Assembly: GCA_036940085.1 (NCBI GenBank)
Contig: JALLBK010000236.1
Location: forward strand, 1 to 33,807
Reading direction: 5' to 3'
DNA: 33,807 bases
Origin: Discostella pseudostelligera
Lineage: Eukaryota > Bacillariophyta > Thalassiosirophyceae > Thalassiosirales > Thalassiosiraceae
Numbering within the stretch: position 1 is the stretch's first letter; each line of letters opens with the position of its first letter. Below are positions 1,218 through 27,723 of the stretch, piece after piece. A program made the position numbers and the translations under genes. The notes under the pieces are model-generated. The model worked only from the letters and a program-made list of their open reading frames with translations. It was not told the origin of the DNA and ran no database searches.

Positions 1218-4200
1218 ATGTTGTCAGATCCCCGTTCATCGAATAATATTCCTCAATCAGCCAACGTCGACTCGTCCCGGGAGGAGGGATTGTCATCATC
1301 TTCATCGCATAATATGAAGATGTGCACGGATCAATTCTGCTCAATCGATCCTCCAGCATCAGAGAACGACACCACCATGGACGTAAATGAACACACAGCC
1401 GCTCAGTTGTACGATCGAACAACGAAAGGCCAAGGCCCCTACGACGCCGAATCGCAGGCCTCATTTCCAGAGAGTGCCGTAGGCGTAGCGAGCATGTCGC
1501 CCAGTGCCAATGATACCACCGTCGTCATTAGCAACAGCGCCACTGGGGCAAGCCAGATCCAGCAGCGCGAACGCACCTACACAGATGATACTACCGAATC
1601 GAGTGGATCGGTGAGCAAGCGCACACTTGTGAAGCTGATGCGGGAGCAGGTTGACTTGGTGCGCCGATTGACCAATGCACAGATTGAACAAAAGAAGGAG
1701 CTGGATCGAGTGAAGGAAGAGAAGAGGCAGCTTGAAGAGACGCAGAGACAACAAGCAGCAACTGCAGCAGCAGCTGCTGCACGTCCGCCTGCTTCTGCTC
1801 CTATCCCTACTCCCCCCGTGAGCAACAAGCTTCATCTCCCAACGAGAAATCAGGGGCTTGTAAATGATAATCAAAGCGTGAGCTCTCGATTTTTCCATCG
1901 TCCCAGTCCATCTGTGAAGCAATACCCCCGTCGCCACCCGGACAGTCGATACTACAACAATCGCTCTCCTGATGAAAACACCATCACAAATGACAACCCC
2001 AGCATGGCATCGACTATCATGCCCTCGGCTATTGTTATCAACTCCAATACGGCGAATAATACTGGAGCATTCGATGCTCCGGTGACTGGTCCTGGTGCAT
2101 TTGTCAATGGATTCGCCAAAGATAAAATTGAGATTACCTACATTCCCGATCGTAATGTGGTGACCGAACCGGAGAATACCTGTCTTACTAACCTGTGGTG
2201 GGTATTCTCCCGTCTATGCACCTTGTTTATACCCGACATGCTCATTTGCTGGGCGGGGAATGTTACAATTACCAAGGGTATGACACGGGAGGCACGGAAG
2301 GAGGCGTTGGAGGCAAGCAAGGAGGCCAAGCAGGCGTGGCGTGAGAAGGTGGCGATATTTATTGTTATGTTGAGTTTCAGTGCTGCCTTTATTGGGGTTA
2401 GTGGTGTGATTCCTGCAGTGTTATGTGGAGCTGAGGATGCGTTCTTGGTGAGAATATCAGATTATGAATGCAAACAACATTTTACTTGTGTGCTAATTCT
2501 CACGACAATATATTGACTTTGTCTCATGTATTCGATCATTTGGCAGGATGAAACGAAGACGAAGGATGTGTACGTGACACTTTTTAGACTAGTCATTATT
2601 CCATGCTCAATTCTCGACAAACACTGACCATCATCTTCCGACGCTGGTTGTCATTGCTCATCGCAGAGTCTGTGGCGCTTTCAGCTATGTCATGTATTCG
2701 GTTATGATTATTATTGCTGCGGTGCTTGCCATCCAGTGCCTATGCTCTCTGATTTACCTCTTTCGGGTAAAGCGAAATATCACGAGGGATGATACACGGA
2801 GCAAGATAATTGTCATGGTTCCGTGCTACAACGAGGGTGACAAAGAGCTGCGCAAGACCATTGATAGTGTCATGGACACCTCCTACCCTGATGACAACAA
2901 GGTCTTACTCGTGGTGGCAGATGGCAATATCACAGGCAAGGGTGAGATGTTCTCAACACCGGTAGTGCTGTCGAAGATTTTGGGATACAAAATGAGCCCT
3001 ACCGATAAGATGTTCAAGTGCAAAAGCATTGGCGAACTTACTGAGAATCGAGCCAAGCTTTACTATGGTAAGTGAGGTCAATTGTTTTCTCTCCGGTGGT
3101 GAAAGATAATAGTCTACTGACAAAATAGGTTATCATTTCAATGAACAGGGATTTGTAAAGATGCCGGGAAAGAGCTGAAATATATCGTCTTGGTGAAGTG
3201 TGGTGCACAATCCGAGCAGGGAAGTCCTCGGGCGGGCAATCGAGGCAAGCGTGATTCTCAGCTATTGTTCTCGGGTCTACTCAACCGATTCCACCATGGC
3301 AGGAAATTGAATGAGCTTGATAAGGCCATCAAAAATGCGCTCGATCATTTGCAACTGCCCCTGGACCAAGTCAGGTATCTCATGGCAATTGATGCCGACA
3401 CCCGTGTTGATCGTGAATCCATCTCCCACATGACCTACAGTATGAACAAGAATGACCAAATCCTTGCCCTGTGCGGCGAAACGAAGGTGGACAACAAATC
3501 GCAGAGCTGGGTGACGATGATTCAAGTGTTCGAGTACTACACGAACCATCACATGAAGAAGGCGTTTGAATCTGTATTCGGTTGTGTTACATGTTTGCCC
3601 GGTTGCTTTACTAGTAAGTTTTCTGTTTGCGTTGTCAGTAATTATTTGTTTGACTAACTCACTCACACTTCCTTGTGGCATTGCAACATTAAACTTTGTG
3701 TGCAGTGTACCGACTCTTCAGCGATGATGGTCGTCCTCTACTATCGTGCGACGACGTCTATCAACGTTACGCAATCAACAATGTCAGATCCCTTCATGAA
3801 AAGAATCTCTATCACCTCGGAGAAGACAGGATGCTAACAACATTACTTCTGCGGTATTTTCCTGATATGAAGCTCAGCTTTATACCCGAGGCAGCATGCT
3901 ACACTATCGTACCACACACGTTCTCAGTACTCCTGAGCCAACGCCGACGATGGATTAACTCCACATTCCATAATATGTTGGAGCTCCTTCGAGTGAATAC
4001 CATGTGTGGTGTGTGCTGCTTCTCGATGAAGAGCATTGTCTTGTTGGATTTAGTTGCCACACTGATTCTCCCCGCTAGTCTTATTTATGTCGGCTACATC
4101 GTATACATCACGGTCTGGATGAATGAACCATTATCATTGCTAATGATAATTGTGTGGGGCATCGTGATTGGTGTTCAGGTAGTCGTATTCTTATTACGAT

Positions 4201-4643
4201 CGCGTTGGGATTACTGGTGGTGGTTCATCATCTTCGTATTGGCAGGGGTGCCCGTGTTTTACTTTATTTTACCCCTGTATTCCTTCTGGCACATGGATGA
4301 CTTCTCTTGGGGAACGACTCGGCAAGTAAGTGGAGCGGCTACTACGAAACAGATCACATCTATCGAGAGTGGAGACACCATTGTTGGTAGAGATTCTCCT
4401 GACAATGATTTGGAAGAGCAGAGAATTGCGCAAGCCAGAGCTGCGAGGCACGCAGCGAAACGCCAAACAGCACATGAAGAGACTGGTAAACTGAACTTGA
4501 AGCCAAAGCTTCACAGTACTGTTGTCGACTGTGATGAGGATTATTCGGCTGGTGATGCTTCCAAAACAACGTATGATCCAAATAAGTATAGAGACGCAGA
4601 GGAAGCTAAGAATGCACGTCGACTTCGAAGGGGTGAATGTTAA
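1218..4643 (+). CDS. Chitin synthase (GT2, fungal division-2-like), five exons
   Basis: This multi-pass membrane enzyme polymerises UDP-GlcNAc into chitin. Exons are 1218-2447, 2547-2569, 2667-3067, 3149-3613 and 3706-4643 (1018 aa); every junction has GT...AG and keeps frame, including a 23-nt micro-exon. The first in-frame ATG is 1218; the frame opens at 1191 only with GTG. Residues 1-370 are a Ser/Thr-rich cytosolic region with a coiled coil (about 134-180) and a poly-Ala run. A conserved CTLFIPDML...AWREKVA block and membrane segments near 378-400 and 425-450 follow. The catalytic domain shows VPCYNEGD (about 468), DAD (633-635), VTCLPGCFTMYR, GEDR (E746-D-R) and QRRRW (785-789), the signature of processive chitin synthases. 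Three more membrane segments follow, then a charged tail. Centric diatoms secrete chitin fibrils, which fits. An AATAAA at 4759 may be its poly(A) signal. The family call is firm; the exact N-terminus is less so. Confidence 0.95.
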
Positions 4644-4861: not shown

Positions 4862-6361
4862 TTATTTTAATTGCCAAACTGTTTCATATGCCTTCGTGTC
4901 AAGGCAGCGCTCCTCGAAAGCATTCACGTCTTTTTCTCGCTCTGCCAATTTCCGCTTTTCGTCGAGGTGATTAACGATCGACTGACAAGTGTCTATGTTC
5001 AGTTGAGCCATATCGAGATCAAATGTGGTCATCAAATCTTCCAGAGAAGGATACATTTGCGTACTACGCTCATGACGACCTTGCAACATCTTTTCTCTCC
5101 ATGCGAGCCCGTCCCATTCTTTTCCATTGCCAACGAAGCCACGGCAAACTAAATACCTCTCCGCTGACGCAGGTCGCGACAGAATTGGCTTCACAAACGT
5201 CATTTGCCCAAAGAAGGTATGCAGAACATTGAGCATGTTTCGTGTTGCATCCTCCCGAAACCCAAACATTTTCAAGACGAATGTTCCTCCGGGGCGAAGA
5301 AGGGTTAAGGCGGCGGCAGTTTGAGATACAATGATTTTGAAAGCAATTGATTCTTGATCGATGGAGTCTCGTTGAGCATCGAAGCCCCCATCTGCAACGA
5401 CGAGATTGGCCAGCGGATTGTCGCAGCTTGTCGGATCAATTTTCACTCGAATGTCATGTTGGAGTTGAACGACGTTGTCCCAATTGTAAATACTTCCAGT
5501 TCCGTCTGCACCGTCACACACATGATAGGACAGTTGCGGTCTCATGTCTTCTTTCTTGGCTTTTGGCATATAATGACAGTTAATGTGGTATCTTTTCAAG
5601 TGATCTAAATCCCAACGAGCACCTTCACCGTCGCTATTACTCCCATTGAGACTCATTCCAAAACCAAAACAAGCTCGTCCACCATTCATTCGGAGGCCAT
5701 GGACATCATCCATTTCAGGGTCATTAGTTTGACTGATGGCCGGATGAAGGTATCGGTACAATATGTATTCACTAAATCCACCAGGTGCCCCGCACAAATC
5801 CACAAAAACGAAAGTGTTCTCTTCTTCCTGAACTGCATTTGTGAGGATGAATCCAAGTAATGCATCAATATTGGCAAGTTTGATTGCTGACCGATTAATG
5901 AATCGAGATAGTCCTTGGGGTGTAGGTTGTTGATGCCATTTCCGTTTTCTAGATTTCTTCTTGTGATGATTGAGTTTACTCTTTGATGTCGCTGCCCCTA
6001 ACGATTCGTATGGATTACATAATGATCGAGCTTTTCGGAATTCGTATCCTGGATTTGTTGAATTTGATGACTGGTAGTAGGTATTGATGGCGTTGGCACA
6101 CGCTGTTGCAGCAGGCATTAATTGTTCTTTCATCCGGTTCAACTCAGAGACAAGTGAATCATATGATTTATCTGGTAATGAAACTGTCTCTGCCGGTTTA
6201 GATGATGGTAAGCTCGGCGACGAAGAGTGAATGCCATCCTCGGCGACGACAGCTTCTGCATTTTGCAAATCATCGCGACGGCGGATCCATCTCACTTCTG
6301 GGAACCAGCTGGATATGACTCCCGTCGCAAGTGGAGAGGTGGCTGAATCATTGATGCTCAT
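4862..6361 (-). CDS. Cap-specific mRNA 2'-O-methyltransferase (CMTR1-like, FtsJ/RrmJ fold)
   Basis: A single-exon, 499-aa SAM-dependent methyltransferase predicted to methylate the 2'-OH of the first transcribed nucleotide (cap 1) in the nucleus. The Rossmann SAM loop reads FVDLCGAPGGFSEY (about 186-199). The K-D-K-E catalytic set of this family is visible: K161 in SAIKLANID, D324 in VVADGGFD, K364 in FVLKMFGF and E401 in RPASAERY. SRPAxxERYxVCRG also matches the CMTR1 family rather than rRNA FtsJ enzymes. A lysine-rich patch (about 132-141) could be a nuclear signal. There is no G-patch or WW domain as in animal CMTR1, so the protein is shorter. The frame stays open to 6523 but has no ATG above 6361, so I start there; an unseen upstream exon is possible. 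It is convergent with the chitin synthase (218 nt gap). Confidence 0.9.
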   Translation of the reverse strand: MSINDSATSPLATGVISSWFPEVRWIRRRDDLQNAEAVVAEDGIHSSSPSLPSSKPAETVSLPDKSYDSLVSELNRMKEQLMPAATACANAINTYYQSSNSTNPGYEFRKARSLCNPYESLGAATSKSKLNHHKKKSRKRKWHQQPTPQGLSRFINRSAIKLANIDALLGFILTNAVQEEENTFVFVDLCGAPGGFSEYILYRYLHPAISQTNDPEMDDVHGLRMNGGRACFGFGMSLNGSNSDGEGARWDLDHLKRYHINCHYMPKAKKEDMRPQLSYHVCDGADGTGSIYNWDNVVQLQHDIRVKIDPTSCDNPLANLVVADGGFDAQRDSIDQESIAFKIIVSQTAAALTLLRPGGTFVLKMFGFREDATRNMLNVLHTFFGQMTFVKPILSRPASAERYLVCRGFVGNGKEWDGLAWREKMLQGRHERSTQMYPSLEDLMTTFDLDMAQLNIDTCQSIVNHLDEKRKLAEREKDVNAFEERCLDTKAYETVWQLK

Positions 6362-6919
6362 AAAACGATAATAGGGCAGAGGAGCTTCGGTATCTAGTAA
6401 TGGTGGTTGGTGGTGGTGAACGCGGTGCTGCTGCCGGCGCGGCTGCAGGGCTTCTTTTCGGCGGCGTCGTCCGTCGCCCGCCACACAATCTTCCCGCCAT
6501 TTCGCCACATTTCTATCGCCACATTATCGCCTCCTCTTCTTCCCGCCACATTATCGCCGCACTTTTCTTCCCGCCAATGCTGTTTCTTACACGTGGCAGG
6601 AATCGTTGGCGCGAGCTTACACGTGGTATCGTATCGTAGTCTGGCTTTTTCCACCAAAGCGATCATCTGGAATCTATTGTATTGTAATCAAATCCGCAGT
6701 GCACGCAGTCGATTAATCGCGTGTTAAAATATGGAACAATGATTATCGTGTTGGCTAACAAACGAAAAAAGGAACAAGATTAGGAGCGGATTGTTTGGTA
6801 CTCCTCAAACTGGGCGTCTGGGAGTGGGAGCGGTGATGGACGTCATCGAGTTAAGATCATTCCTCTATTCTTTCTGCAGCAGAAACATATTCACAGTAGA
6901 GAGATTTCGTCCTTCTACT
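6362..6919. other. Intergenic: methyltransferase promoter side and ATG12 3' side
   Basis: 558 nt between the methyltransferase start and the ATG12 stop, both on the minus strand. The part nearest the methyltransferase (6394-6580) is GC-rich with the TTCCCGCC cluster. The remainder shows no conserved coding sequence on either strand. Open frames here are low-complexity and I regard them as chance. Confidence 0.6.
6486..6576. promoter_or_regulatory. Cluster of three TTCCCGCCA (E2F-like) sites in short local repeats
   Basis: TTCCCGCCA occurs at 6491-6499, 6540-6548 and 6568-6576, interleaved with the repeated phrase CCACATTATCGCC (around 6517 and 6546). It lies 130-215 nt upstream of the methyltransferase ATG. 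TTSSCGC-type sequences are the known E2F/DP consensus in plants, animals and algae. That this cluster binds E2F is inference. Confidence 0.5.
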
Positions 6920-8018: not shown

Positions 8019-9735
8019 ATGATTCTCACAGTAAAGACCCTCAAGGGAGGGAAGTTCACCGTCGAGGTGGATCCATCGAATACTGTGGCTGAGGCCAAGG
8101 CTGTCATTGTGAGTTTGTTCATTTATTTGTCTTCAGCGGCGGCGACGAGCATCGGTGCGGTTACTGTTACGACTACGACGGCTGCGGTCGAGGGTGGCGC
8201 TGCTGGTGGCTATTATTATTTGCTTTCAGGGATTTGCGTCTATTGAATCATCCTCAAGAATGCTTACCATTTCAACTATTCTCTAATCTTTTATCAATGA
8301 CTCCAAAATCAATTGTAGGAAGCGGCCAAATCAGAGCTTCCCGCGGATTCCATGAAATTGATCCATTCGGGCAAAGTGTTGAAAGATGATGACAAAATTG
8401 AAAGTTGCAATATCAAACCCAATGATTTTCTAGTGGTCATGATTACCAAGGTGAGGGATTTTCATAATTCTTCGTCATTTCTATTAAGTTTGGTCAATGG
8501 ATCGTTGACAATTATGTAATCACAAATGTAATTGTTTTGTTGTCATGCCTCTCCCGACTTGCATTATTCAGGCCAAAAAGGCACCAGCTCCCAAACCTGC
8601 CGAATCCACTCCTGCCGTACCAGAAACTCCAGCTGCAACTGCCAATCCACCCACCACTCCAGCCGCACCTGGTCCAGCATCATCTACTGCTGCCGCTGCC
8701 ACAGCCACTCCAGCTGCTGCCCTCCCAGCAGCAGCCTCCGCGGACGTGAGCTCACCCGATGAATTTCCAGCCGAAGTGGTGAACAATCTCATAGCGCTTG
8801 GGTTTCCAGACTCTTCCGTCCGAGCCTGTCTTCGTGCCGCGGATGGAAATCCAGATGTTGCCGTGGAATTTCTAATGAATGGCATTCCCCCGGGGATTGG
8901 ACAGGGTGCATCAGCGGCGGGGGCAACCTCTTCCTCTGATACTGGTGGAGATGGAGGGCCATTGGAAACATTGCGACGTCATCCACAATTCGATGCACTC
9001 CGACGTCTCGTACAAACCAATCCCAGTATGCTTCAGGCAGTACTCAGCCAAATTGGTCAGCAACAACCGGAATTACTCGAGGCTATTAATGCCAATCAGG
9101 CACTGTTTCTTGAAATGATGAATGAGCCTGTACCTGATGCTCCTTCTGCATCTGAATCTTCTGCCGGTGTAGCTTCTTCCCAACCATCAGCGGCAGTGCC
9201 GCGTAGTGGTGGTACTGGTGGTGGTGATGATGCATCCAATGCCTTCGCGGGCATACCCGGAATGGAAGCTCTTGGCAATCCCGTCCAACTAGCCCAAATG
9301 CTCCAGGCCATGCCACCCGCCGAGCAGGCGGCAATGGCACAAATGATGGGTATGGATGTGAATCAACTACAGCAATTGGCACAAATGATTAGTGCTATGC
9401 CTCCGGAGCAGGTTCAGCAACATATGAATATGGCTATGCAAGCGCAAGGACTTGGTGGTATGCTTGGTGGAGGGGGTGGCGGAGGCGGTGGTGGGTTGGG
9501 AGGAGCGCAAATTCTGCGTCTATCGGAGGAGGAGATGGCCGCCGTCGATCGCTTGACTGAAATGGGATTTGATAGATCAGAGGCCGCCCAGGCATATTTG
9601 GCATGCGATAAGAATGAGGCATTGGCAGCGAATTTGTTGATGGATGGTGGATTTGGGGCGTTTGGTGGTATGGATGGGGCTGAGGGGGATTATGATGATG
9701 ATGTTGGCGGTGGAGATGATGACATGTATGATTGA
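8019..9735 (+). CDS. RAD23: RAD23-like UBL-UBA proteasome shuttle / NER factor
   Basis: Exons 8019-8108, 8319-8450 and 8572-9735 give 461 aa; donors are GTGAGT and GTGAGG, acceptors TAG and CAG, all phase 0. RAD23 carries ubiquitinated clients to the proteasome and stabilises XPC/RAD4 in nucleotide excision repair. Domains in order: N-terminal ubiquitin-like domain (1-74, starting MILTVKTLKGG), Ala/Pro-rich linker, UBA1 (about 137-170, IALGFPDSSVRACL), XPC-binding/STI1 region (about 195-247, LETLRRHPQFDALR), a Met/Gln-rich helical segment resembling a second STI1 stretch, a poly-Gly run, and UBA2 (about 392-433, LTEMGFDRSEAAQAY). After UBA2 there is an acidic Asp-rich tail of about 20 residues; most RAD23 proteins stop soon after UBA2. 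The 210-nt first intron is the longest in the window. Confidence 0.95.
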
Positions 9736-10057: not shown

Positions 10058-13000
10058 TTACTCCTCCCCAAGATCGATAAAGACCTTCTTTGGCGTCTTT
10101 TGTGGAGATCGAGGCAAGAAGTGTAGGGAACACTTTGGTGATTTACGCGCACTTCCCTTCTTCTTACGTTTTGAGCTGCTGGTGCTATCTTGACTGTATG
10201 GTTTTTCTTCATGGGAATCATCGTGGGCTTCACCGATAGCACCGTTCAATGGATCTGGGGAGGGTGGCTTACAATTAAGAGCTGTCTTTGGATTGTTTTG
10301 TGAAGAATTTGGTGATAAGAACGTGTCTTCTTTGGTGTAGTGAACCCGGTTTTTATGCAGATGGCCGCTGACCTTCCTCATCGGCTGCTCGAGAACGCTC
10401 TTGGTCGCCGATTTATGGATTGCATGCTGGTGAGATTTGATAGGACGTTCATGAGTAGTAGGCTCTTTGGCTCGCGTCCTATCTTTGCGCTCACTATTTT
10501 GCAAAATTTGAGCCTCGTCATGTCTAAATAAGGCATCATCTAATTGAGCTCTTTGTTGAATTGGGCGAAGAGGCGCAGGAGAAGTAGCTTTGAGCAACTG
10601 CAATTTTTGTTCTATACGCATCTCCGTCAACCTTATCTCTTCTTTCAATGCATGAAGCTGCTTCATTTCCACAGCGTGCTTACTCTCACGACGGAGAAGA
10701 TCGTTTTCCCTCATCTGAACATCGCTCTCTCTCCGCAAAACAGATTGTTGATCAACCTTCGACTGTTCAAACTTCGCGACCATTTCGTTGAATGCCGTCT
10801 CGCGCTTAGACAATGCAGCATAATCTGATTGAAGTCTGCTTTCCATCTCTATTAAACGATCTGATGTTTGCTCACTCGATGTATAGCATCTGAATGCTTC
10901 CCGACCATTGCATGTGCTACTCGCATATTTTGACACATCGGTAGATGGTAGAGTGAACCGAGAATTGCGTTTGCAGAGCCCATCGATGAAATCATTCAGG
11001 ATACGACGATCACATAGCTCTTGCAGTACGCGGCAAGACCAACCGAATTGGCTCATGCGTTCATCATCGGATGAAGCAATGCTCGTAAAGTTGACTGGGT
11101 ACTGTAGCCGAAAAGGAGCAGTGGTTTCCTTCATGGGTGCTAAGTTCCCAACGCACATGAGAGCCTGGAAGAGTGAGCACCATGATAAAGCACCTCGAAG
11201 GAACAAATTTCCCTCTATGAAGAATTTCGAAGCTAACTCCAGAGCTCCATTTGTAGATGTCAACGTAATTTCAACTCCCCCTGTAATGAGGAGATGAATC
11301 ACATTCGCAAGGCACTGGTAATCATGAGCAAAGTGACTTTCTGGGCAATTTTCCTGACAGTTCAGAACAACTGCCTTTTCTCCAAAGCCGATCAGCTGTA
11401 GGTACCAAGAGTCAATCGACTTTCCATGTTCCGGTTGCCCCCGATTTCTAGAGTGCGTCTCGTTTTTCTTCACAACCAAAAATGAATCGAGACCGATGTC
11501 GTTGTGCGCAATGCCACACGAATGCATTGCTGCCACAGCCTCAATGGCATGGAATGACAACATTGCAATAGCTTGTTCTGGAATCATACCCGTTGTTTGA
11601 TGCTGTCGATGGAGAGTAAACAAATCTTTCAACGTTCCGAAAACTTTGAATGACGACCCTTCCGTGCTAGATCCAGATGCCGCTAAGTTAAGTGATAACC
11701 CATGTACAATTTCCTGTGCCGAATCATCCACGTCCATCGTACAATCATCCTTGACAATAGCGTTCGGATGAGGAAAGAAATAACTTGCCGGAGTGATCTC
11801 GTCCGATGAGTTGAACATGATAGACTTAGAGCGGTCACCGAGGGTAAACAAGATATATGATTCCCACGTCACAAATTGGTTGTCTCGGAGCAGCTGATCA
11901 CAAATCGTTTTGGGTAGAACGCAAGTCGTCGCGTTGGTTGGCTTGTTTACACTGACGGGGTTCGTACATGACACTAATGGACTAATAGATCTATTTCGGC
12001 CACGTAAACAGCGGACACCTTTCCGTGGTCGATTTGACAATTTGTTTGCTCCTGCCGACAAAGATGCCTTGCCGACGTCATTGAAATACTCATGCCACAG
12101 AAGACTGGTCAAATATGCAGCCTGATCGTTTCCTGCCGAGAGCGCCTTAATTGAGGTCAGAACCGTTTGGTGAGATTGCCGTGTGATGAATGTTGAGCAC
12201 TTTTGAGGTGTTGCTTGCTTGTTGGCTTTGAAATTCAGTTTCCTCTTTTTAGGCATCGCATACTCGACATGGGACACCCTGGAACCTCGAGTGCAAACTG
12301 ATTCGTTGTCATTGTATTCGGTTGTGGTTGCACGGGCGGGGGTGTCGGTTGGTAGAAGATGAATCCTCCTTCCCCGTTTGACTGGCGACTTCGACTTAAC
12401 ATATATTGACGACGCCATGGATGCGGGCGAAGCGCACATAATGATGTTGTCAGAATGCGACGTTGTTGGATCTATCGTACTTTCGTCATCCGAAACATCG
12501 TCGGCGTCAGTATCGAACAGATTTTGAGTTATAATAGTGTGAAATAGCCACGACGTTGACAGAACTTTGGCCCCAAATCGTTTAGCTCTCGCGACCCCGA
12601 ACTCTCCTAACTGAGATTTTGTACTGGGGTCGCTGGTAAGCACAATTGTTTTCGTTGGATCAAAAGCATCCGGGCTGGAAAGAGATTTCAGCACTTGCCC
12701 ACCACCTGCCTCTATAATGAGATGAATCTCTTTCAAACTCGGTGCCTTATTTCCAGCCACACCGGAGCAAATGTAAACAAACCAGCCCCCAAAGACGCCG
12801 CCTCGCCGCTTTCTAGCCCGAATGCCATTTCGTAGTGTCATTTTCATTGAGAAATCGTATCGTTTTTCTGCTTCCCTGTCATTAAGTAGCAGAAAATCGT
12901 CTGTGTTCAGAACACATTGCTGTTTTGACGATTGTTCAAGCCATTCGATGCTCAAAATTTGAGCCACGCGGCAGATGCAGATCATTAGCTTGGGTGTTCT

Positions 13001-15174
13001 CCTCAACTTTGTAATACCATCGCTTGCAATCACGTGTGTGGCTGTGTGCGCTTCCTCAATAGAATGCACGTACTCGGCTCCAATCGTTTCAATCATCTGA
13101 GCCGCAATTCAGTAGTCAAAAAGATCAGAAGTGAAGAAGCAGCGTCGAAGAGAATATGATATCTGCTTACCTGCAAATGTCTGCGTGTTGGAGTGAGACC
13201 GGTAAATATAATTCGAACTGAGCCCTTGCCTTCGCTGCGCTCCCTCATTTTCACCAATGAATACACCTCGCCGCCGTCATTCGGTGACTCAACCTCCACG
13301 CGTACATTATCATTGGTCTGCAAGAGAATTTCATTCGTCTCCGTAGGTTGCGAATCAACATGCTCATTGTCGGAACACGCAATCCTGACATCGGAGACTT
13401 TTGTTCCAACATCAATGACTTGCGCTTCCATGTCCTCAACTAAGTCTTCGGCCACATCGTCTCCCACGCAGTTTTCGGATGTGCCAGCTGCCTCGCTTGT
13501 GTGACTAGGTTGAGTATTGTCCATATAATCGTTGTTTTCCAAATTCATTGATCGCGTTACTCGCCGGGTAGGAGACTCTTCTATGTTATCCCTATCCTCC
13601 ATTGGTTGTGTGTTTGGCAAAAACGACCATATTTCATCGTCTTGCATGTCTAAATCGTCAGCAGCAGTTGCAAAATCCGCATGTATTGTTTCATTGTTAC
13701 CCTCGCTCATCTCTCGATTTGGATCTTTTTCACTGGTCGATGCATTCGAGGCGTTCATTTCATCAGCACCATTTGCAATTGGTGAGTCACAAGAGTTACG
13801 CTTTTTACGCTTCGAGCGATGTATATTATTTGATTGTGATTGTCCACTAGGCGTTGAGTGTGCCGCCGCTAGCCCCTCTGGTTGTTGCTGCGGCCCCTGA
13901 TGGAAAATTTGCGGAGATGAGGTTCTTGTCGATTGCTCAATAGGTTGTGTGGCGAGATCTTCACGAGCATTGAGTTCATCATCATCATCAGTGTTGGTAT
14001 GGTTTGACTCAAAATTATCGTCCACGGTAACATCCCTGCAAGCAGCGACCAATGACGCTTTCCGCAAACTCTCTTCGTTCAGTGTCAAGTCATCCCTCAA
14101 CTCCACTGCCCTCTCCGTCACTTCAAAAACAAAATCCAAATCTCTTTTCTTCCCATTCTTAAGCACTGCAAATAATTGGTATTGGAGTTCTTCATATTGA
14201 TTGTCATCAGTTATTGAGCGAATGACGTGCAAAGTCTTCAACGCAAGTTCCAATGGAGATAGAGTCATTTCCATTTGGAGGCAGGCGGTAGAACACCGGT
14301 GAATAAGCCAATGGGCATTGGACGAAGAAATGGAATCCTCGAAATTGGTATGGGACTGATCTCTAGTATGAACAGAAGGCTGATCCTCGTTTTGATGCGC
14401 TTCTTCTGTCGAGTCTTCAGCATTTTGAGGAATTACCGTTAATGTGGTCCCCTCGATATTGTGTGATGTTTCATTTCCAAGAGGTTGATGGATTGGGTTC
14501 GGTTCTTTTCTATTTATTTTTTCCACATCCTTGGTAGATTCCAGCTCATTTGCTACATCGTCTATGTCCTCCATCGACTGCGCGGTTTGTGCTCTAATAT
14601 TATTTGTAGGTATTAACGGTGGCGATTCAGCTGTTCTTTCCAATGACGGACCAAGATTATCGAACCGCAAATTATTCACATCAGAGATCGGAGGAGACTT
14701 ATGAGATATTCGTTGAACTGAAAATGAATGTGATCCGAAATCGATGTAATTGAGACTCTCTCTGGGTTGAGGTCGGATGTATGAGGTGGCTATCAACCCT
14801 TTGTCTTTAGTCGACGCAGATGACACAACATGGGCATTGGCATTGGTTGTTGTGGCAGCTTCCACTGAAGGCATTGTTCCATTGTCTACTTTTCCTGATT
14901 TGTTAGACCCAGGTGGTGATTCTGTTGGGGATGCGGTGGCATGTATTTCATCACGCGAGCCGGACGTTTCGTTCAATGCACCGTTCAATGACAGTCTGGC
15001 AACGTCGTCATGAATATTATTGTCGACATGATGATGTGACGGAGGCGCGCCCGCTTTCGTCGCCTCTAAAACATTGGCATTGGTATCAACACCATCTACG
15101 ACCAGTGGTGCCCGCTGGCGACCTGGACCCCTACCGCGTCGTGGGATGATATCAACGCCATGAACACGGGGCAT
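10058..15174 (-). CDS. BRCT-BUB protein: tandem BRCT domains fused to a BUB1/BUBR1-like pseudokinase
   Basis: Two exons (15174-13171 and 13096-10058) give 1680 aa. The 74-nt intron (CAG|GTAAGC...CTCAG|ATG) falls inside the first BRCT, so the two open frames are one gene. Residues 1-650 are low-complexity and acidic, with several SQ/TQ sites and one helical block (about 285-385). BRCT1 spans about 652-735 (IIFTGLTP, LSIEWLEQS, W720), with the T-G pair and K704 expected for phosphopeptide binding. BRCT2 spans about 768-861 (STSWLF, W851). The order and spacing recall MDC1/PTIP. Residues about 1060-1390 match the BUB kinase fold: WESYI (1079), FGTLKDLF, an HRD-like HNDIGLDSF (1199-1207), a DFG-position GFG (1238-1240) and DYQCLANVIHLLITG. 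A coiled coil (about 1414-1503) and a basic tail follow. No TPR or KEN box is evident. Likely a nuclear phospho-scaffold; the precise role is unknown. Confidence 0.8.
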
Positions 15175-15521
15175 GGTTCAGATTTAGTGGTAGTAGTGGG
15201 GTTTGGGGTTGCCGCGGCGGTGCCGTCATGTTAATGTTGTGCATGGAACGATGCGTCATCGCATGGTTGTGGTTCCCGCCTTTTTTGGTCCTAAATTATG
15301 GCGGGAAGCTGCTTGGAGTAATGACATACATTTACGTGATTTTCTACATACAGAATCCTCCGCAGATACATAAGGCGGATTTAATTCAATTTTAGATTAA
15401 TTTAACTGAAGGAATTAGTATTGATTCGATAGCCAATTCTACCACAGGATGGATAGGGCTGTGCCGTTAATTTCAATAGCCACTGAGAAGACGTATTGTA
15501 GTGCTCATTAACCTTCAAAAC
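15175..15521. promoter_or_regulatory. Promoter region of the BRCT-BUB gene with paired E2F-like sites
   Basis: 347 nt between the dynein intermediate chain stop and the BRCT-BUB start, both minus strand. TTCCCGCC at 15273-15280 and TGGCGGGAA at 15299-15307 form an inverted pair about 100-130 nt upstream of the ATG. Beyond this pair the stretch is AT-rich with no coding signal. E2F control would suit a mitotic or DNA-damage gene, but this is inference. Confidence 0.5.
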
Positions 15522-21263: not shown

Positions 21264-22550
21264 TTATCTCGTCGACGTCACATATTGAAGGAGTGCTGCA
21301 ACAACCCCTCTCCCCATGCCTTCGGTGTAATGATTTTGTTTCAATAAATCCGGTATTTCTATATGTTCCTCGTCGCAATTATTTGTTGACACTCCAAGAA
21401 CATGCTCGATAACATTAGCTCCATCAACTGTGGCGCCACATCGTTGAGATGCAACTGCAACGGATGGCACGGGAGCATACGTTTGATGCCAGCAGTGAGC
21501 AGGAATGATCAACAAATCGCCCTGACGTTGTATTGCTGTGATGAATGGAGATGGGTGGTTACTGGTGTCATATGACTGTGCTATCTGATCTAATGCATCG
21601 AGAGCGTCATTACTGGGACGCAGACGAGACTTGTTCAACACTGTAGCTTCCAATTCTCTTTCAAATTTCTCGTTGTCCTCCTCCTCTAATTCCATCAACT
21701 CAAATCCAGAAGGAAATAATTCATCAATTGAATCGTAGAGTGTCATATCGCTTTGCCAACCTGCACTTAAAATCACTGGTATGTCACCATGGTTATGCTC
21801 CACTTCATCATCATCTTCCCAGGCAATTGAGTTAAGTCGATATGATTTCAGTGCTTCGTCAACAATAGCAACACCTCCTCCATTCGATTCCAATGAGTTT
21901 TGTGGTGGCATTATAAACCTCCAAATTTTTGAACCCTCCAAACACAGACTAGTCCCCGTCCATTCAAATGGATCTCGATGCAATGTGGACGTCGAACCGG
22001 TCCCAGCCAAGATAATTGCATCGGTGGGCTGGACACTAGCTGGGAAATAATCGAACCAGTTCTCTTGGTTAGCGAAGGGAGCCTCTCGTATATTCTTTAG
22101 TTCATTGCTCAATTTCATACGGTTGTCATGGAGTGAATTGCTTGGTAGTAGTCCCTCGCAAAACGCAAAATAGGAATCGTCGTGACATGAATCCATCATG
22201 TAATCGATGGAATGTTGAAGTGCAATATCATAGATCTCCGTCGTCGATGATTTTGATCGTTTAGAACGATTTCTCTTCTTAATTTTTCGTTGCATCGACA
22301 CCGTCTCGGTGCCTAAACTATTCATCAATGTATCGGCTAATAATTCAATTGTCTCCGATGAGACAATGTCTCGAATGAGCACCGGTGATGTGTAGACCGG
22401 GGAGGCAAGGTAGGCCTCGAGAGTTATGCGCGGAACGAGAAGGCTGAATGCGGTGCAACCCTTGAGACTGATGATGCCAACGACAAGGGCAGGCATGAAT
22501 ATTCCTGCCATAGTCATGATGTTTATATGGTGATAATGTCGCGGAGGCAT
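21264..22550 (-). CDS. JmjC/cupin-8-like Fe(II)/2-oxoglutarate oxygenase with signal peptide
   Basis: A single-exon, 428-aa protein. The oxygenase core shows the metal-binding HxD at H191-x-D193 (STLHRDPFEWTG), followed by CLEGSKIWRF, which is typical of JmjC/cupin_8 proteins, and a distal GDLLIIPAHCWHQTYAP with H355 as likely third ligand. These enzymes usually hydroxylate or demethylate proteins or RNA. A hydrophobic stretch (about 12-34) ends in GCTAFS: a possible signal peptide with an A-F motif like the diatom plastid ASAFAP site. The mature protein could therefore lie in the plastid or ER rather than the nucleus, which would be unusual for a JmjC protein. A basic patch (KIKKRNRSKRSKSS, about 89-102) and an acidic insert separate core elements. 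It shares a 205-nt divergent promoter with NAD kinase. Substrate unknown. Confidence 0.78.
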   Translation of the reverse strand: MPPRHYHHINIMTMAGIFMPALVVGIISLKGCTAFSLLVPRITLEAYLASPVYTSPVLIRDIVSSETIELLADTLMNSLGTETVSMQRKIKKRNRSKRSKSSTTEIYDIALQHSIDYMMDSCHDDSYFAFCEGLLPSNSLHDNRMKLSNELKNIREAPFANQENWFDYFPASVQPTDAIILAGTGSTSTLHRDPFEWTGTSLCLEGSKIWRFIMPPQNSLESNGGGVAIVDEALKSYRLNSIAWEDDDEVEHNHGDIPVILSAGWQSDMTLYDSIDELFPSGFELMELEEEDNEKFERELEATVLNKSRLRPSNDALDALDQIAQSYDTSNHPSPFITAIQRQGDLLIIPAHCWHQTYAPVPSVAVASQRCGATVDGANVIEHVLGVSTNNCDEEHIEIPDLLKQNHYTEGMGRGVVAALLQYVTSTR

Positions 22551-22755
22551 CGTCTACAATATCGACCACTCGGTCCTCGCGGCCGCCATGGTGAATGGTG
22601 ATTGGTGAGAGAGAGAGAAGAAGATGCTCGCTCGCTCGTCTTGATGCTCGCGAGAATCTTCCCGCATTAATTGTAAACATGAAAATCAATGAACAAATCA
22701 ATGAAGTATCTACTCCCAATGATCATCGCGGCTTCACAATAAGAACTCTCCAACG
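22551..22755. promoter_or_regulatory. 205-nt divergent promoter (JmjC-like / NAD kinase)
   Basis: The shortest head-to-head gap in the window. It contains a GAGAGAGAGAGAAG purine run near 22608-22621, a CTCGCTCGCTCG repeat near 22627 and a partial E2F-like TTCCCGC at 22659-22665. No further element is certain. Confidence 0.45.
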
Positions 22756-24600
22756 ATGATGTTGCTAATGCTAGCGTTCCTTACGCTTGAATCAATCTCT
22801 TCGCCATGCTGCGTAGTCAAAGCCTTCGTGTCGCCGACAATACCCTTGCGGTCTGTCGACAGAAGAAGATGTGCCACGCCAAGAACTATTTTGTCATCGC
22901 GATCGCGGCGACGATCAATAGTACCCCCGGCGATGACGAGCAGCAGCAGCAGCAGCAGCGATGTCATCGTTCATGAAATGACGCACAGCATAGACAATGA
23001 GACGGATACATTCTTTGATTCAATACCGCCATCTCAGCAAATGCAGCAATCCATTACAATTAACGGTGGCGATCCTACTACCAATAGCAATACTAGAACA
23101 ACCACTGCTCCCAACAACAAGCGCAAATTAGAATTGTCATGGTGCAATCACGATGCATGTTACGATGCTATTCGTGAAAAAGTCGTGGGGGAACACAACC
23201 ACATGGAGCTTACGGGTCCTGCGACCGGTCAGGTTGTTTATAGGTGGAATCAACCATCATCATCATCAACAACAACAACAACAACAACATCGTCATCGGA
23301 CAGAGGGAATAATATTATTGCGATATCATCTCCTTCATCATCAACAACGACAACGCCTCCTCCAGCCGTACTTATGCTAGTGAAACGCGATGAAGATGAA
23401 TTACTGTCAGTAACAGTCACCACAATCGAACAACTCATACAATCGGGTGTGCAAGTGCTTATTGATTCGTATTTATGGGGAAAGTTGGAAAATTTCTATG
23501 GCGATGATGATAGAAATGATGATGCAACAATACCTATTGATTTGGAGAGCAGCATGATACGCTTATTTGCACCCAAGCCCGTGTCGGGTTTTGGATCTGG
23601 TGAGCAATTGATTGATTTGGGGTATGCCGATAGCGCAACTGTCACAAGTAGTGATGATGTACGTTCAGAAGTAGACGTAGAAGAACGACGACCTCCCGCT
23701 GATCTATCCGATGCTGACCTCATCGTGACATTGGGCGGAGATGGACTGCTTATGTATGCTGCCCAGGTTTTTTCTGGTCCTGTCCCTCCCGTATTGCCTG
23801 TCGCTGGGGGATCCATGGGATTTTTAACTCCCTTCGCCAGGGAAGAAATGTTGGAGGCTGTTTTCATTGCACTTGGCCTGCGTGATGTAGTAGACGATGA
23901 TGCCGATGAAGAAGACTTGACAGATGATGACTTGAGCGATGGAAGTGATGGGCTTAGGATATCTCAACGTGCCCTGAACCATATGCTGATTGAAGCAACC
24001 TCACGTGAAAGTTACAACGAGTATTCACCACTTGCATTTGGGAATAATAAACAAATATGCATATCCATGAGAATGAGATTAGACTGTCGGATATTTGGTA
24101 TCGATGGATCGCTTCTCGCTCGCTATGCAGTACTGAATGAAGTTGTGATAGATCGAGGTTCATCTCCATATTTGGCCAGCCTGGAGTGTTTCTGTGATGA
24201 CGTGCATTTGACGACGGTCCAAGCCGATGGAATTATATTCTCAACACCCACTGGATCTACGGCGTACTCAATGGCTGCGGGCGGATCGGTCGTCCATCCA
24301 GCTGTTCCTGCCATTTTAGTAACACCCATCTGTCCGCATGTGCTCAGCTTCCGTTCAATGGTATTTCCCGATCACGTCGTCCTAAGATGCTACGTACCAA
24401 GTGATGCACGTTCCACGGCATGTGTCTACTTTGATGGGAAACATCGAACGGAATTAAATAGAGGTGATAGTGTCCAGATTCAAATGTCACCGCATCCGGT
24501 TCCAACCATAAATAGGGCAGATCATTCGGCGGATTGGCTTTCGAGTTTGAAGCGAAATTTTAACTTCAATACGAGGGTGCGGCAAGGTCCACTATCATGA
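22756..24600 (+). CDS. NADK: NAD kinase with plastid-type presequence
   Basis: An intronless 614-aa enzyme that phosphorylates NAD to NADP. The catalytic GGDG loop is at 327-330 (TLGGDGLLMYAAQVF), followed by PVAGGSMGFLTPF and the second conserved element SPTGSTAYSMAAGGSVVHP, both diagnostic of the family. The usual Thr after GGDG is Leu here. The N-terminus is hydrophobic (MMLLMLAFLT...) and runs into VVKAFVSPTIPLRS, i.e. an A23-F24 step followed by a basic, Ser-rich stretch. This is the signal peptide plus transit peptide arrangement of diatom plastid proteins, so a chloroplast NADP supply role is likely. Residues about 61-200 are low-complexity (Ser/Thr runs encoded by AGC and ACA repeats). 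An acidic insert (about 380-400) interrupts the core. Tandem ATGs at 22756 and 22759 make the exact start trivial. Confidence 0.93.
   Translation: MMLLMLAFLTLESISSPCCVVKAFVSPTIPLRSVDRRRCATPRTILSSRSRRRSIVPPAMTSSSSSSSDVIVHEMTHSIDNETDTFFDSIPPSQQMQQSITINGGDPTTNSNTRTTTAPNNKRKLELSWCNHDACYDAIREKVVGEHNHMELTGPATGQVVYRWNQPSSSSTTTTTTTSSSDRGNNIIAISSPSSSTTTTPPPAVLMLVKRDEDELLSVTVTTIEQLIQSGVQVLIDSYLWGKLENFYGDDDRNDDATIPIDLESSMIRLFAPKPVSGFGSGEQLIDLGYADSATVTSSDDVRSEVDVEERRPPADLSDADLIVTLGGDGLLMYAAQVFSGPVPPVLPVAGGSMGFLTPFAREEMLEAVFIALGLRDVVDDDADEEDLTDDDLSDGSDGLRISQRALNHMLIEATSRESYNEYSPLAFGNNKQICISMRMRLDCRIFGIDGSLLARYAVLNEVVIDRGSSPYLASLECFCDDVHLTTVQADGIIFSTPTGSTAYSMAAGGSVVHPAVPAILVTPICPHVLSFRSMVFPDHVVLRCYVPSDARSTACVYFDGKHRTELNRGDSVQIQMSPHPVPTINRADHSADWLSSLKRNFNFNTRVRQGPLS
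22939..22959 (+). repeat. (AGC)7 microsatellite coding poly-Ser in NAD kinase
   Basis: Seven perfect AGC triplets lie in the presequence/linker region of the NAD kinase gene. A second triplet tract, CATCATCATCA followed by ACA/CAA repeats, lies at about 23253-23289. Both encode Ser/Thr runs and are probably length-variable between alleles. Confidence 0.85.
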
Positions 24601-25786: not shown

Positions 25787-26205
25787 CTTTGCTGCCGATG
25801 GTGTGGTAGTGGTAGACAACTCCGTCCCCGTTCCCCATGTGCGCCATGGTCATGGTTTTGGGCGGCGGCGGCGACGGAGCTTCGAGATCGATGAGGTGGA
25901 CGAAGGTCTTGATTATTTTGGCGGGAGATGGAAGATTTGGCGGGAGATATTTGACTCGACTCTTTATGCTTACACGTGGCTTATTTCTGGTAGAAGCCTG
26001 CCCGTCGTCCAGCATCGTCCATCAGCTGCCCGCTGCAAACTCAACCACACTGCAACCGGCGCGCAGTCCGAAGGTGCACCATCGTCGTCGGCGGTCGGCA
26101 GTAATATCGTATTGCTCGGCATTGCCGTCAATTGCATTGCTCGTACTATCTTCTCCTCTCGAGAGGCTCGAGCATTGCCGAGAGGTAGATCTCATCAGTA
26201 TCGCC
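25787..26205. promoter_or_regulatory. Divergent promoter (HAD phosphatase / SEC61A) with two TGGCGGGA sites
   Basis: 419 nt head-to-head gap. TGGCGGGAGAT occurs twice, at 25919-25929 and 25938-25948, only 19 nt apart, like an E2F-type doublet. The SEC61 frame stays open through this region up to an ATG at 25837, but the sequence has no resemblance to SEC61 and includes these motifs, so I treat it as promoter and leader. Confidence 0.5.
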
Positions 26206-27723
26206 ATGTCGAAGGCCATTCACCTCATCCGGCCCATCCTATCCGTCGTTCCCGCAGTGGAGAAGCCAACGGCCGCGGTTCCATTTCGTGAAAAAGTGCT
26301 ATGGACGATATGCGCTCTCTTAATTTACATGGTCTGCTCCAACCTTCCCCTCTACGGCGTGCAGCGGGCACACACCTCCTCGGATCCATTCTACTGGATG
26401 CGTGTCATTTTGGCATCTAACCGGGGCACATTGATGGATTTGGGCGTTAGTCCATTGATTACTACCGGTATGGTCATGCAGCTCCTGGTGGGGTCGAAAG
26501 TTATTGATGTCAATTTGGACATCAAGGAGGATCGTCTGTTGTTCATGGCGGCGCAAAAAGTCGTGGGGCTACTAGTAACCATTGCGGAGGCAACGGCATG
26601 TGTCATGAGTGGGATGTATGGCGATCTATCCGCAATTGGGGCCGGAAATGCCATCCTGATTGTGGCGCAATTATTTTTGGCAGGTCTTGTCTTACTAATG
26701 TTGGATGAGTTGCTCCAACGAGGATATGGAATAAGTTCAGGAATTAGTATCTTCATCGCATCGCACATTTGTGAAACTGTCGTATGGAAGGCGTTTAGTA
26801 CAAGAACGATTAATACCGGTAGGGGTACGGAGTTTGAGGGAGCCATCGTTGCCCTCTTTCATTTGTTCATCGTCCGACGGAACAAATTCCAAGCTATTTC
26901 CGAGGCGCTATTTCGTCAAAATCTTCCCAATCTGACTAGCTTGGTAGCCACCGTTCTCATCTTTGCCTTATGCGTATATATGCAAGGATGGCGTGTTGAA
27001 TTGATGATCAAATTACAAAAAGCACGTGGGTTGGAACAGCGCTATCCGGTGAAATTATTGTACACGTCGAACATGCCCATTGTGCTACACACGGCTTTGG
27101 TGTCGAACATATACTTTGTTTCGCAAATGCTGTACAAACAGCAACCAAGTTCTCCGTTCATTAAATTATTTGGTGATTGGGCAGTGACATCATCTTCCGA
27201 GGCTGCATCGGTTCCTGTCGGTGGACTGGCATACTACATTTCACCTCCCGCGACATTTTCGGCGTTCCTCCATGATCCATTCCATGCAATCTTCTATTTG
27301 GTCTTTACTCTCACGGCATGTGCTATCTTCGGCAAGACATGGACGGAAGTGAGTGGTACCAGTGTGAGGCATGTGGCGCGTCTCTTCCGCGACAACCAGG
27401 CAGTGATGAAGGGTCATCGTGATACGGCTACATCTTCCGTTCTTCGTCGTTACATTCCTATTGCTGCGGCGCTGGGTGGGATGTGCATCGGTTTGATATC
27501 GGTTCTTGCAGATTACTTGGGTAAGTTTCGTTACATGTTCACTCTGAGATATATTTGCGTCATGACTTATGCTGATTTGCCGAGGTCTCTCTCTGTTCTG
27601 TAAGGTGCCATTGGAAGCGGAACTGGAATCTTGCTGACGGTAACGACGATATATGAATGTTACGCGGCGTTTGCAAGGGAGAATAGCAGGGAAGCAGATA
27701 AGCCTCTCGTGGTAACCAATTAG
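26206..27723 (+). CDS. SEC61A: SEC61 alpha, protein-conducting channel of the ER
   Basis: Exons 26206-27520 and 27605-27723 (84-nt intron, G|GTAAGT...TAAG|GT) give 477 aa, the normal length for the family. This is the pore subunit of the ER translocon, with ten membrane spans. Diagnostic stretches: an N-terminal amphipathic FLRPI-type start (IHLIRPILSVVPAVEKP), the plug/TM2a region YGVQRAHTSSDPFYWMRVI, LDELLQRGYGISSGISIFIA, the cytosolic loop with YPVKLLYTSNMPIVLHTALVSN, and DYLGAIGSGTGILLTVTTIYE spanning the intron. The start was chosen by family length and conserved N-terminus, although an upstream in-frame ATG (25837) would add 123 unrelated residues. The C-terminus ends in a short polar tail. 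Confidence 0.97.

Follow-up and report, generated by a model that had tools for sequence, protein, structure and literature searches.

Tandem BRCT domains and a BUB-family pseudokinase in one protein of centric diatoms, a possible adaptor that connects mitotic control with DNA-damage marks

Introduction

Human MDC1 and its fission yeast homologue Mdb1 contain a tandem BRCT module of the MDC1/PTIP class. In MDC1, the phosphate is bound by T1898 and K1936, and R1932 and R1933 bind the +2 and +3 positions; Mdb1 has roles at the spindle midzone as well as at DNA breaks (PMC4013092). The plant gamma-H2A.X readers BCP3 and BCP4 represent MDC1-like tandem BRCT domains outside animals, with an SQ-tailed H2A as the ligand (PMC11014961). 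The BUB kinase fold is known from MadBub, BUB1, and BUBR1, and the TPR is the one domain common to all MadBub members (PMC5204127). It is also known from KKT14 of kinetoplastids, a BUB1-like pseudokinase without TPR, in which the beta3 Lys and the HRD and DFG motifs are lost and the alpha-C Glu is kept in almost all sequences; KKT14 carries an ABBA motif, and the Bub3-like protein KKT15 is a binding partner of it (PMC11286163). Here, we describe a gene of the diatom Discostella pseudostelligera whose product joins both kinds of module in one chain. The gene lies on contig JALLBK010000236.1 (assembly GCA_036940085.1, positions 1 to 33,807); this whole stretch of 33,807 nucleotides (nt) was analyzed and is called the window.

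With MDC1 and Mdb1, the fusion protein has the tandem BRCT module in common, including the equivalents of T1898, R1932, R1933, and K1936. In the fusion, however, the BRCT domains are located mid-protein and not at the C-terminus, and a BUB pseudokinase follows downstream. Furthermore, the marks of MDC1 orthology, an N-terminal FHA domain and TQxF motifs, appear to be lacking, since Pfam gave no FHA match and a motif scan of the window protein gave no strict TQxF. With MadBub, BUB1, and BUBR1, the C-terminal domain of the fusion shares the kinase fold and the alpha-C Trp-Glu, whereas the TPR (Mad3_BUB1_I), KEN, and ABBA elements are absent, the catalytic residues are lost, and a separate MadBub is encoded in the genome. 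The likeness to KKT14 consists of a BUB1-like pseudokinase without TPR, the loss of HRD, DFG, and beta3 Lys, and the retained alpha-C Glu. In contrast to KKT14, the fusion has no ABBA motif, and the main text of PMC11286163 does not mention BRCT domains. The plan of BCP3 and BCP4 is nearer to that of the MDC1-like diatom relatives described below than to that of the fusion, and the excerpts of PMC11014961 do not mention BUB1. The nearest functional precedents of the reader part are MDC1 and Mdb1; those of the dead BUB domain are BubR1 and KKT14.

Both halves of the protein are thus already known, and their union is the new part. We found no published report of a BRCT-BUB fusion in open papers, a search scope with subscription journals and bioRxiv mostly outside it. 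Elsewhere, to our knowledge, any connection between the DNA-damage and spindle-checkpoint pathways is made by separate proteins. The handling of damage after mitotic entry is generally an open question, and few studies have dealt with checkpoints in diatoms. With both readouts covalently linked in one conserved protein, a direct, genetically testable handle would be available.

Results

Two protein searches yielded 46 relatives. Both modules are present in 26 of them (with the window protein, these are the 27 fusion members), and 20 have the tandem BRCT module without the kinase. In the window, the gene corresponds to two minus-strand open reading frames at positions 10058-13108 and 13093-15177, which a sequence-only reading had proposed to be a single gene interrupted by a 74-nt intron at 13097-13170. 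Excision of this stretch (GTAAGC...CTCAG) resulted in a stop-free frame of 1680 codons. All GT-AG introns of 30-200 nt around the seam that preserve the frame (n = 16) were scored against four relatives spanning the seam. The intron at 13097-13170 ranked highest against all four, with 129, 123, 118, and 108 bits for P0009, P0016, P0021, and P0017, respectively. The second-best candidate reached 110, 98, 94, and 91 bits, leaving a gap of 17-25 bits. The seam is crossed without a break in 11 of the 26 homologue models. Another 14 models begin at the exon 2 Met (10 models) or 8-22 residues upstream of it (4 models), which is what an intron overlooked by gene callers at this site would produce, and the model of P0108 begins further downstream.

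On the intron scoring and the relatives with unbroken models, we reject two separate genes, and the proposal of one gene stands. A chimeric assembly or chance join is very unlikely because the domain pair is kept in 26 homologues. The gene occupies 10058..15174 of the minus strand, like all features of the protein given below, and extends from the ATG at 15174-15172 to the stop codon at 10060-10058. Four of the 11 seam-spanning homologues (P0016, P0017, P0021, and P0023) begin with MPR[VI]H, which supports this ATG. Exon 1 (13171..15174) encodes residues 1-668, comprising mostly low-complexity linker, an N-terminal conserved block, and the first part of BRCT1. Exon 2 (10058..13096) encodes residues 669-1680 of the 1680-residue product and the stop codon.

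BRCT1 (residues 645-738; 12887..13242) is split by the intron. It matched Pfam RTT107_BRCT_5 with an E value of 1.2e-4 and 22.4 bits, under the 27-bit cut-off of this family, and BRCT2 (residues 769-862; 12515..12796) matched BRCT_2 above the cut-off (E 2.4e-10). When residues 645-862 were used in a PDB sequence search, MDC1 (2etx; E 1e-11) and PTIP (3.7e-11) were the best matches, followed by BRCA1 (E 0.011). The alignment placed T658-G659 of an FTG motif (13198..13203) on MDC1 T1898 and the next Gly, and R700, R701, and K704 of LRRTPK (residues 699-704; 12989..13006) on R1932, R1933, and K1936. The T658 and G659 equivalents are present in all 12 fusion members with letters there; the other 15 of the 27 have no letters at this site. 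The equivalents of R700, R701, and K704 are kept in 25 of the 26 fusion members with letters and in all 20 kinase-less MDC1-like relatives. P0023, the only exception among the fusion members, has an apparent unspliced intron read at that place. The best PDB matches and the retained phosphopeptide pocket bear out the earlier description of the module as MDC1/PTIP-style.

Three matches to H2A C-termini were found in the D. pseudostelligera genome. One of them, on C278 (L012), ends in SKSQDY, and the other two end in SATK. The SQDY tail fits SQ+E/D+F/I/L/V/Y, the definition of an H2A.X-type tail (PMC11014961). With the pocket residues retained and an SQ-tailed H2A in the same genome, the module is a candidate MDC1-type gamma-H2A.X reader.

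The kinase-like domain comprises residues 1062-1395 (10916..11917). In a PDB sequence search with this domain, BUB1 came first (E 6e-5) and PAK4 was close behind (E 6e-4). BUB also led the profile ranking, the hhalign comparison with 20 other kinases as the control set, Foldseek, and VIA; the top five rows of the VIA fold search were all BUB1 or BubR1, tied among themselves. In hhalign, the window pseudokinase scored 44 bits with a non-diatom BUB profile and 12.5 bits with a diatom-side BUB profile, the two sets differing in diversity. The BUB1/BUBR1-like kinase fold claimed by the sequence-only reading therefore withstood comparison with other kinases, and the profile searches it had named as the test of a non-BUB assignment favored no other family. 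Both the fold and the alpha-C Trp-Glu signature, which is invariant over all 27 fusion members, support placement of the domain in the BUB kinase fold family.

The catalytic motifs are degenerate. The catalytic-loop equivalent is HNDIGLDSF (residues 1199-1207; 11480..11506), aligned with HGDIKPDNF of BUB1. The HxD Asp is kept in 19 of the 27 fusion members, including the window protein, and is replaced by Asn in five and by Glu in three. The DFG equivalent is GFG (residues 1238-1240; 11381..11389), and its Asp is absent in 27 of 27 members (GFG in 25, GFN in one, and NFG in one). In the alignments, no conserved Lys of the fusion members falls on the position of BUB's beta3 Lys, and a glycine loop was also not seen. 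Judged by these residues, the domain is catalytically dead, i.e., a pseudokinase.

A complete canonical MadBub gene with two introns is located at C252:4000-13900 (L008) of the same genome. Its product matched Mad3_BUB1_I (E 6.7e-25) and contains three KEN boxes and five ABBA-like motifs, and its kinase retains HCDIKPDN and DFG. This rules out the fusion as the organism's own BUB protein; the fusion is an extra protein. In the window protein, the motif scan detected neither KEN boxes nor ABBA motifs (0 and 0), and Pfam gave no Mad3_BUB1_I (TPR) match at E values up to 10. A Mad3_BUB1 Pfam match was also absent, and no dedicated GLEBS motif scan was run. Since the TPR is common to all MadBubs and absent here, we do not file the fusion as MadBub, BUB1, or BUBR1. 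At the site of WEFY in non-diatom BUBs, the MadBub kinase of this genome reads AHEY.

Named holders of both modules, among the 26 homologues, are Skeletonema marinoi, S. dohrnii, Cyclotella atomus, C. cf. meneghiniana, and C. cryptica, and the remaining ones are environmental sequences. In the kinase-less relatives (P0025-P0030, P0100-P0103, P0105-P0107, and P0109-P0115), the tandem BRCT module is C-terminal. Named records of this class include Thalassiosira exigua, T. profunda, Mediolabrus comicus, and Proboscia alata. TQ(x)F motifs are present in 12 of the 20, ten of them with strict TQxF; an FHA domain had been suspected by eye in this class, and Pfam detected none in the nine of 20 scanned. 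Both classes occur as separate records in C. meneghiniana (P0018, fusion; P0105, kinase-less) and C. cryptica (P0023, fusion; P0102, kinase-less), and the classes are therefore most likely paralogues. We take P0102 to be from C. cryptica because of its CCRYP prefix. A BRCT search of the D. pseudostelligera genome for an MDC1-like paralogue gave only a weak match of 25% identity at C182, from which absence does not follow, as the assembly of 23 Mb may be incomplete. The kinase-less diatom family is a possible stramenopile counterpart of MDC1 and worth a study of its own.

In the kinase tree, all 27 fusion members formed one clade with a support of 100/100, on a very long branch (4.32 changes per column). 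In the BRCT tree, the fusion label required two changes, and this tree alone does not prove a single origin. The odd row was P0103, which has 69 residues after the BRCT domains, is labeled Alexandrium tamarense, and is sister to the diatom fusion protein P0020 at 100/100. P0103 is probably a mislabeled, contaminant, or truncated diatom sequence.

Discussion

The architecture is well supported, and from it we infer a function. With a probability of roughly 0.55, the protein is a nuclear adaptor of centric diatoms, a chromatin-anchored pseudokinase between DNA-damage marks and mitotic control. It would be a relative of a diatom MDC1-like protein in which the C-terminal tandem BRCT module was combined with a degenerate, catalytically dead kinase domain of the BUB1/BUBR1 family. 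The BRCT pair would recognize an SQ tail in its phosphorylated form, with gamma-H2A.X as the most likely ligand, and would thereby bring the pseudokinase to damaged chromatin. At such sites, a mitotic or checkpoint partner may dock onto the pseudokinase without any catalysis by it, and DNA breaks might be signaled to mitosis or protected during mitosis. Because Mdb1 works at both sites, a dual role at breaks and at the spindle seems plausible. More tentatively, we suggest a lineage-specific checkpoint wire, in which a gamma-H2A.X-bound BUB pseudokinase would allow factors of the spindle checkpoint or of error correction to be captured or regulated by breaks directly on chromatin.

Several points weigh against the adaptor role and the BUB assignment on which it draws. 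Conservation of the pocket does not prove that gamma-H2A.X is the ligand, and the pocket of Mdb1 has a role at the spindle midzone that does not depend on gamma-H2A (PMC4013092). The pseudokinase may also no longer contact checkpoint proteins. With the diatom-side BUB profile, the 12.5 bits of the window protein stand against 12.9 bits for other kinases. The genome's other kinases reach 61.5 bits with the BUB profile, and the 40 bits of the window protein carry weight only by comparison with the control set. With the fusion profile, the MadBub kinase of this genome scored only 2.6 bits. Finally, the alignment behind the confident AlphaFold2 (AF2) model held seven BUB kinases among its 25 rows, and AF2 with ten fusion homologues alone gave a predicted local distance difference test (pLDDT) score of 43. 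The fold result therefore does not count as evidence separate from the sequence match.

The nature of the C-terminal domain leaves little room for alternatives. Derivation from a non-BUB kinase family would fit the closeness of PAK4 to BUB1 in the PDB search, the profile ranking, where one other kinase locus of 30 (L024) stands above the weaker BUB rows, and the long branch of the fusion clade. BUB nevertheless came first in the PDB sequence search, the profile ranking, controlled hhalign, Foldseek, and VIA, which makes such a derivation the least probable of the explanations considered. Hardly more credible is an active kinase with unusual chemistry: 19 members, the window protein among them, have the HxD Asp, but the DFG Asp is missing from every member, eight have Asn or Glu for the catalytic-loop Asp, and the alignments reveal neither a conserved beta3 Lys nor a glycine loop.

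The alternatives concerning the role carry more weight. The protein may act solely in damage mediation, as an MDC1-like gamma-H2A.X scaffold; its pseudokinase would then be a domain co-opted for interaction or stability, unconnected with spindle or kinetochore. This would be in line with MDC1 and PTIP as the best BRCT matches, with ten SQ/TQ sites, with the lack of KEN and ABBA motifs and of a Mad3_BUB1 Pfam match in the fusion, and with the view, quoted in PMC11286163, that the human BubR1 pseudokinase mainly stabilizes its protein. However, the presence of the domain in 27 of 27 members, its invariant alpha-C Trp-Glu, and a conserved GNLFLRGALSWC-like stretch suggest a selected surface, although such a surface says nothing on a spindle role either way; we consider this explanation unlikely, while taking it seriously. 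A divergent kinetochore or spindle scaffold, with the BRCT pair reading a mitotic phosphosite and the pseudokinase at the kinetochore as KKT14 is in kinetoplastids, has precedents in KKT14 itself, which is BUB1-like and without TPR (PMC11286163), and in the spindle role of the MDC1-type tandem BRCT module of Mdb1 (PMC4013092). Yet the fusion lacks KEN and ABBA, and a canonical MadBub is encoded beside it in the genome. In addition, R700 and R701 are kept, and their MDC1 counterparts contact the post-phosphoserine residues and the free C-terminus, favoring a C-terminal phosphorylated SQ ligand. We therefore regard a kinetochore scaffold as improbable, and as the weaker of these two explanations of the role.

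If the adaptor role is true, a BUB kinase domain has been reused once more as a dead scaffold, after BubR1 and KKT14, and here freed of TPR, KEN, and ABBA. That a degenerate BUB domain persists outside MadBub, in a genome with an intact MadBub as well, argues for a useful surface on this fold that does not depend on catalysis.

Other features of the protein and the window

Residues 283-380 (14035..14328) form a conserved, helical-looking block, which was present in 8 of 8 fusion homologues and 0 of 4 MDC1-like relatives examined. This block had no match below E 0.1 in Pfam and none below E 0.36 in PDB. Its restriction to the fusion class in this sample indicates that the fusion is not simply an MDC1-like protein plus a kinase.

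Between the BRCT module and the pseudokinase, the protein contains PKKRKLN (residues 950-956; 12233..12253; position read from the sequence), which is presumably nuclear-localization-like, and a basic stretch, RKGVRCLRGRNRSISPLV (residues 1026-1043; 11972..12025), which is conserved in the fusion-member alignment. Downstream of the pseudokinase, residues 1412-1510 (10571..10867) read as a charged, probably helical tail. The coiled coil proposed for about this region is plausible and unconfirmed, a crude heptad scan not having ranked the region at the top. At the C-terminus, KVFIDLGEE (residues 1672-1680; 10061..10087) resembles what we take to be a SUMO-interaction motif, and the pattern is C-terminal in seven of the eight fusion proteins scanned.

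A RAD23-like gene with XPC-binding and UBA domains is located at 8509-9732 (plus strand), tail to tail with the fusion gene. Elsewhere in the window, matches were obtained to chitin synthase (3693-4640, plus strand), an FtsJ methyltransferase (4865-6523, minus strand), JmjC (21267-22553, minus strand), NAD kinase (22723-24597, plus strand), and SecY/Sec61 (25816-27600, plus strand).

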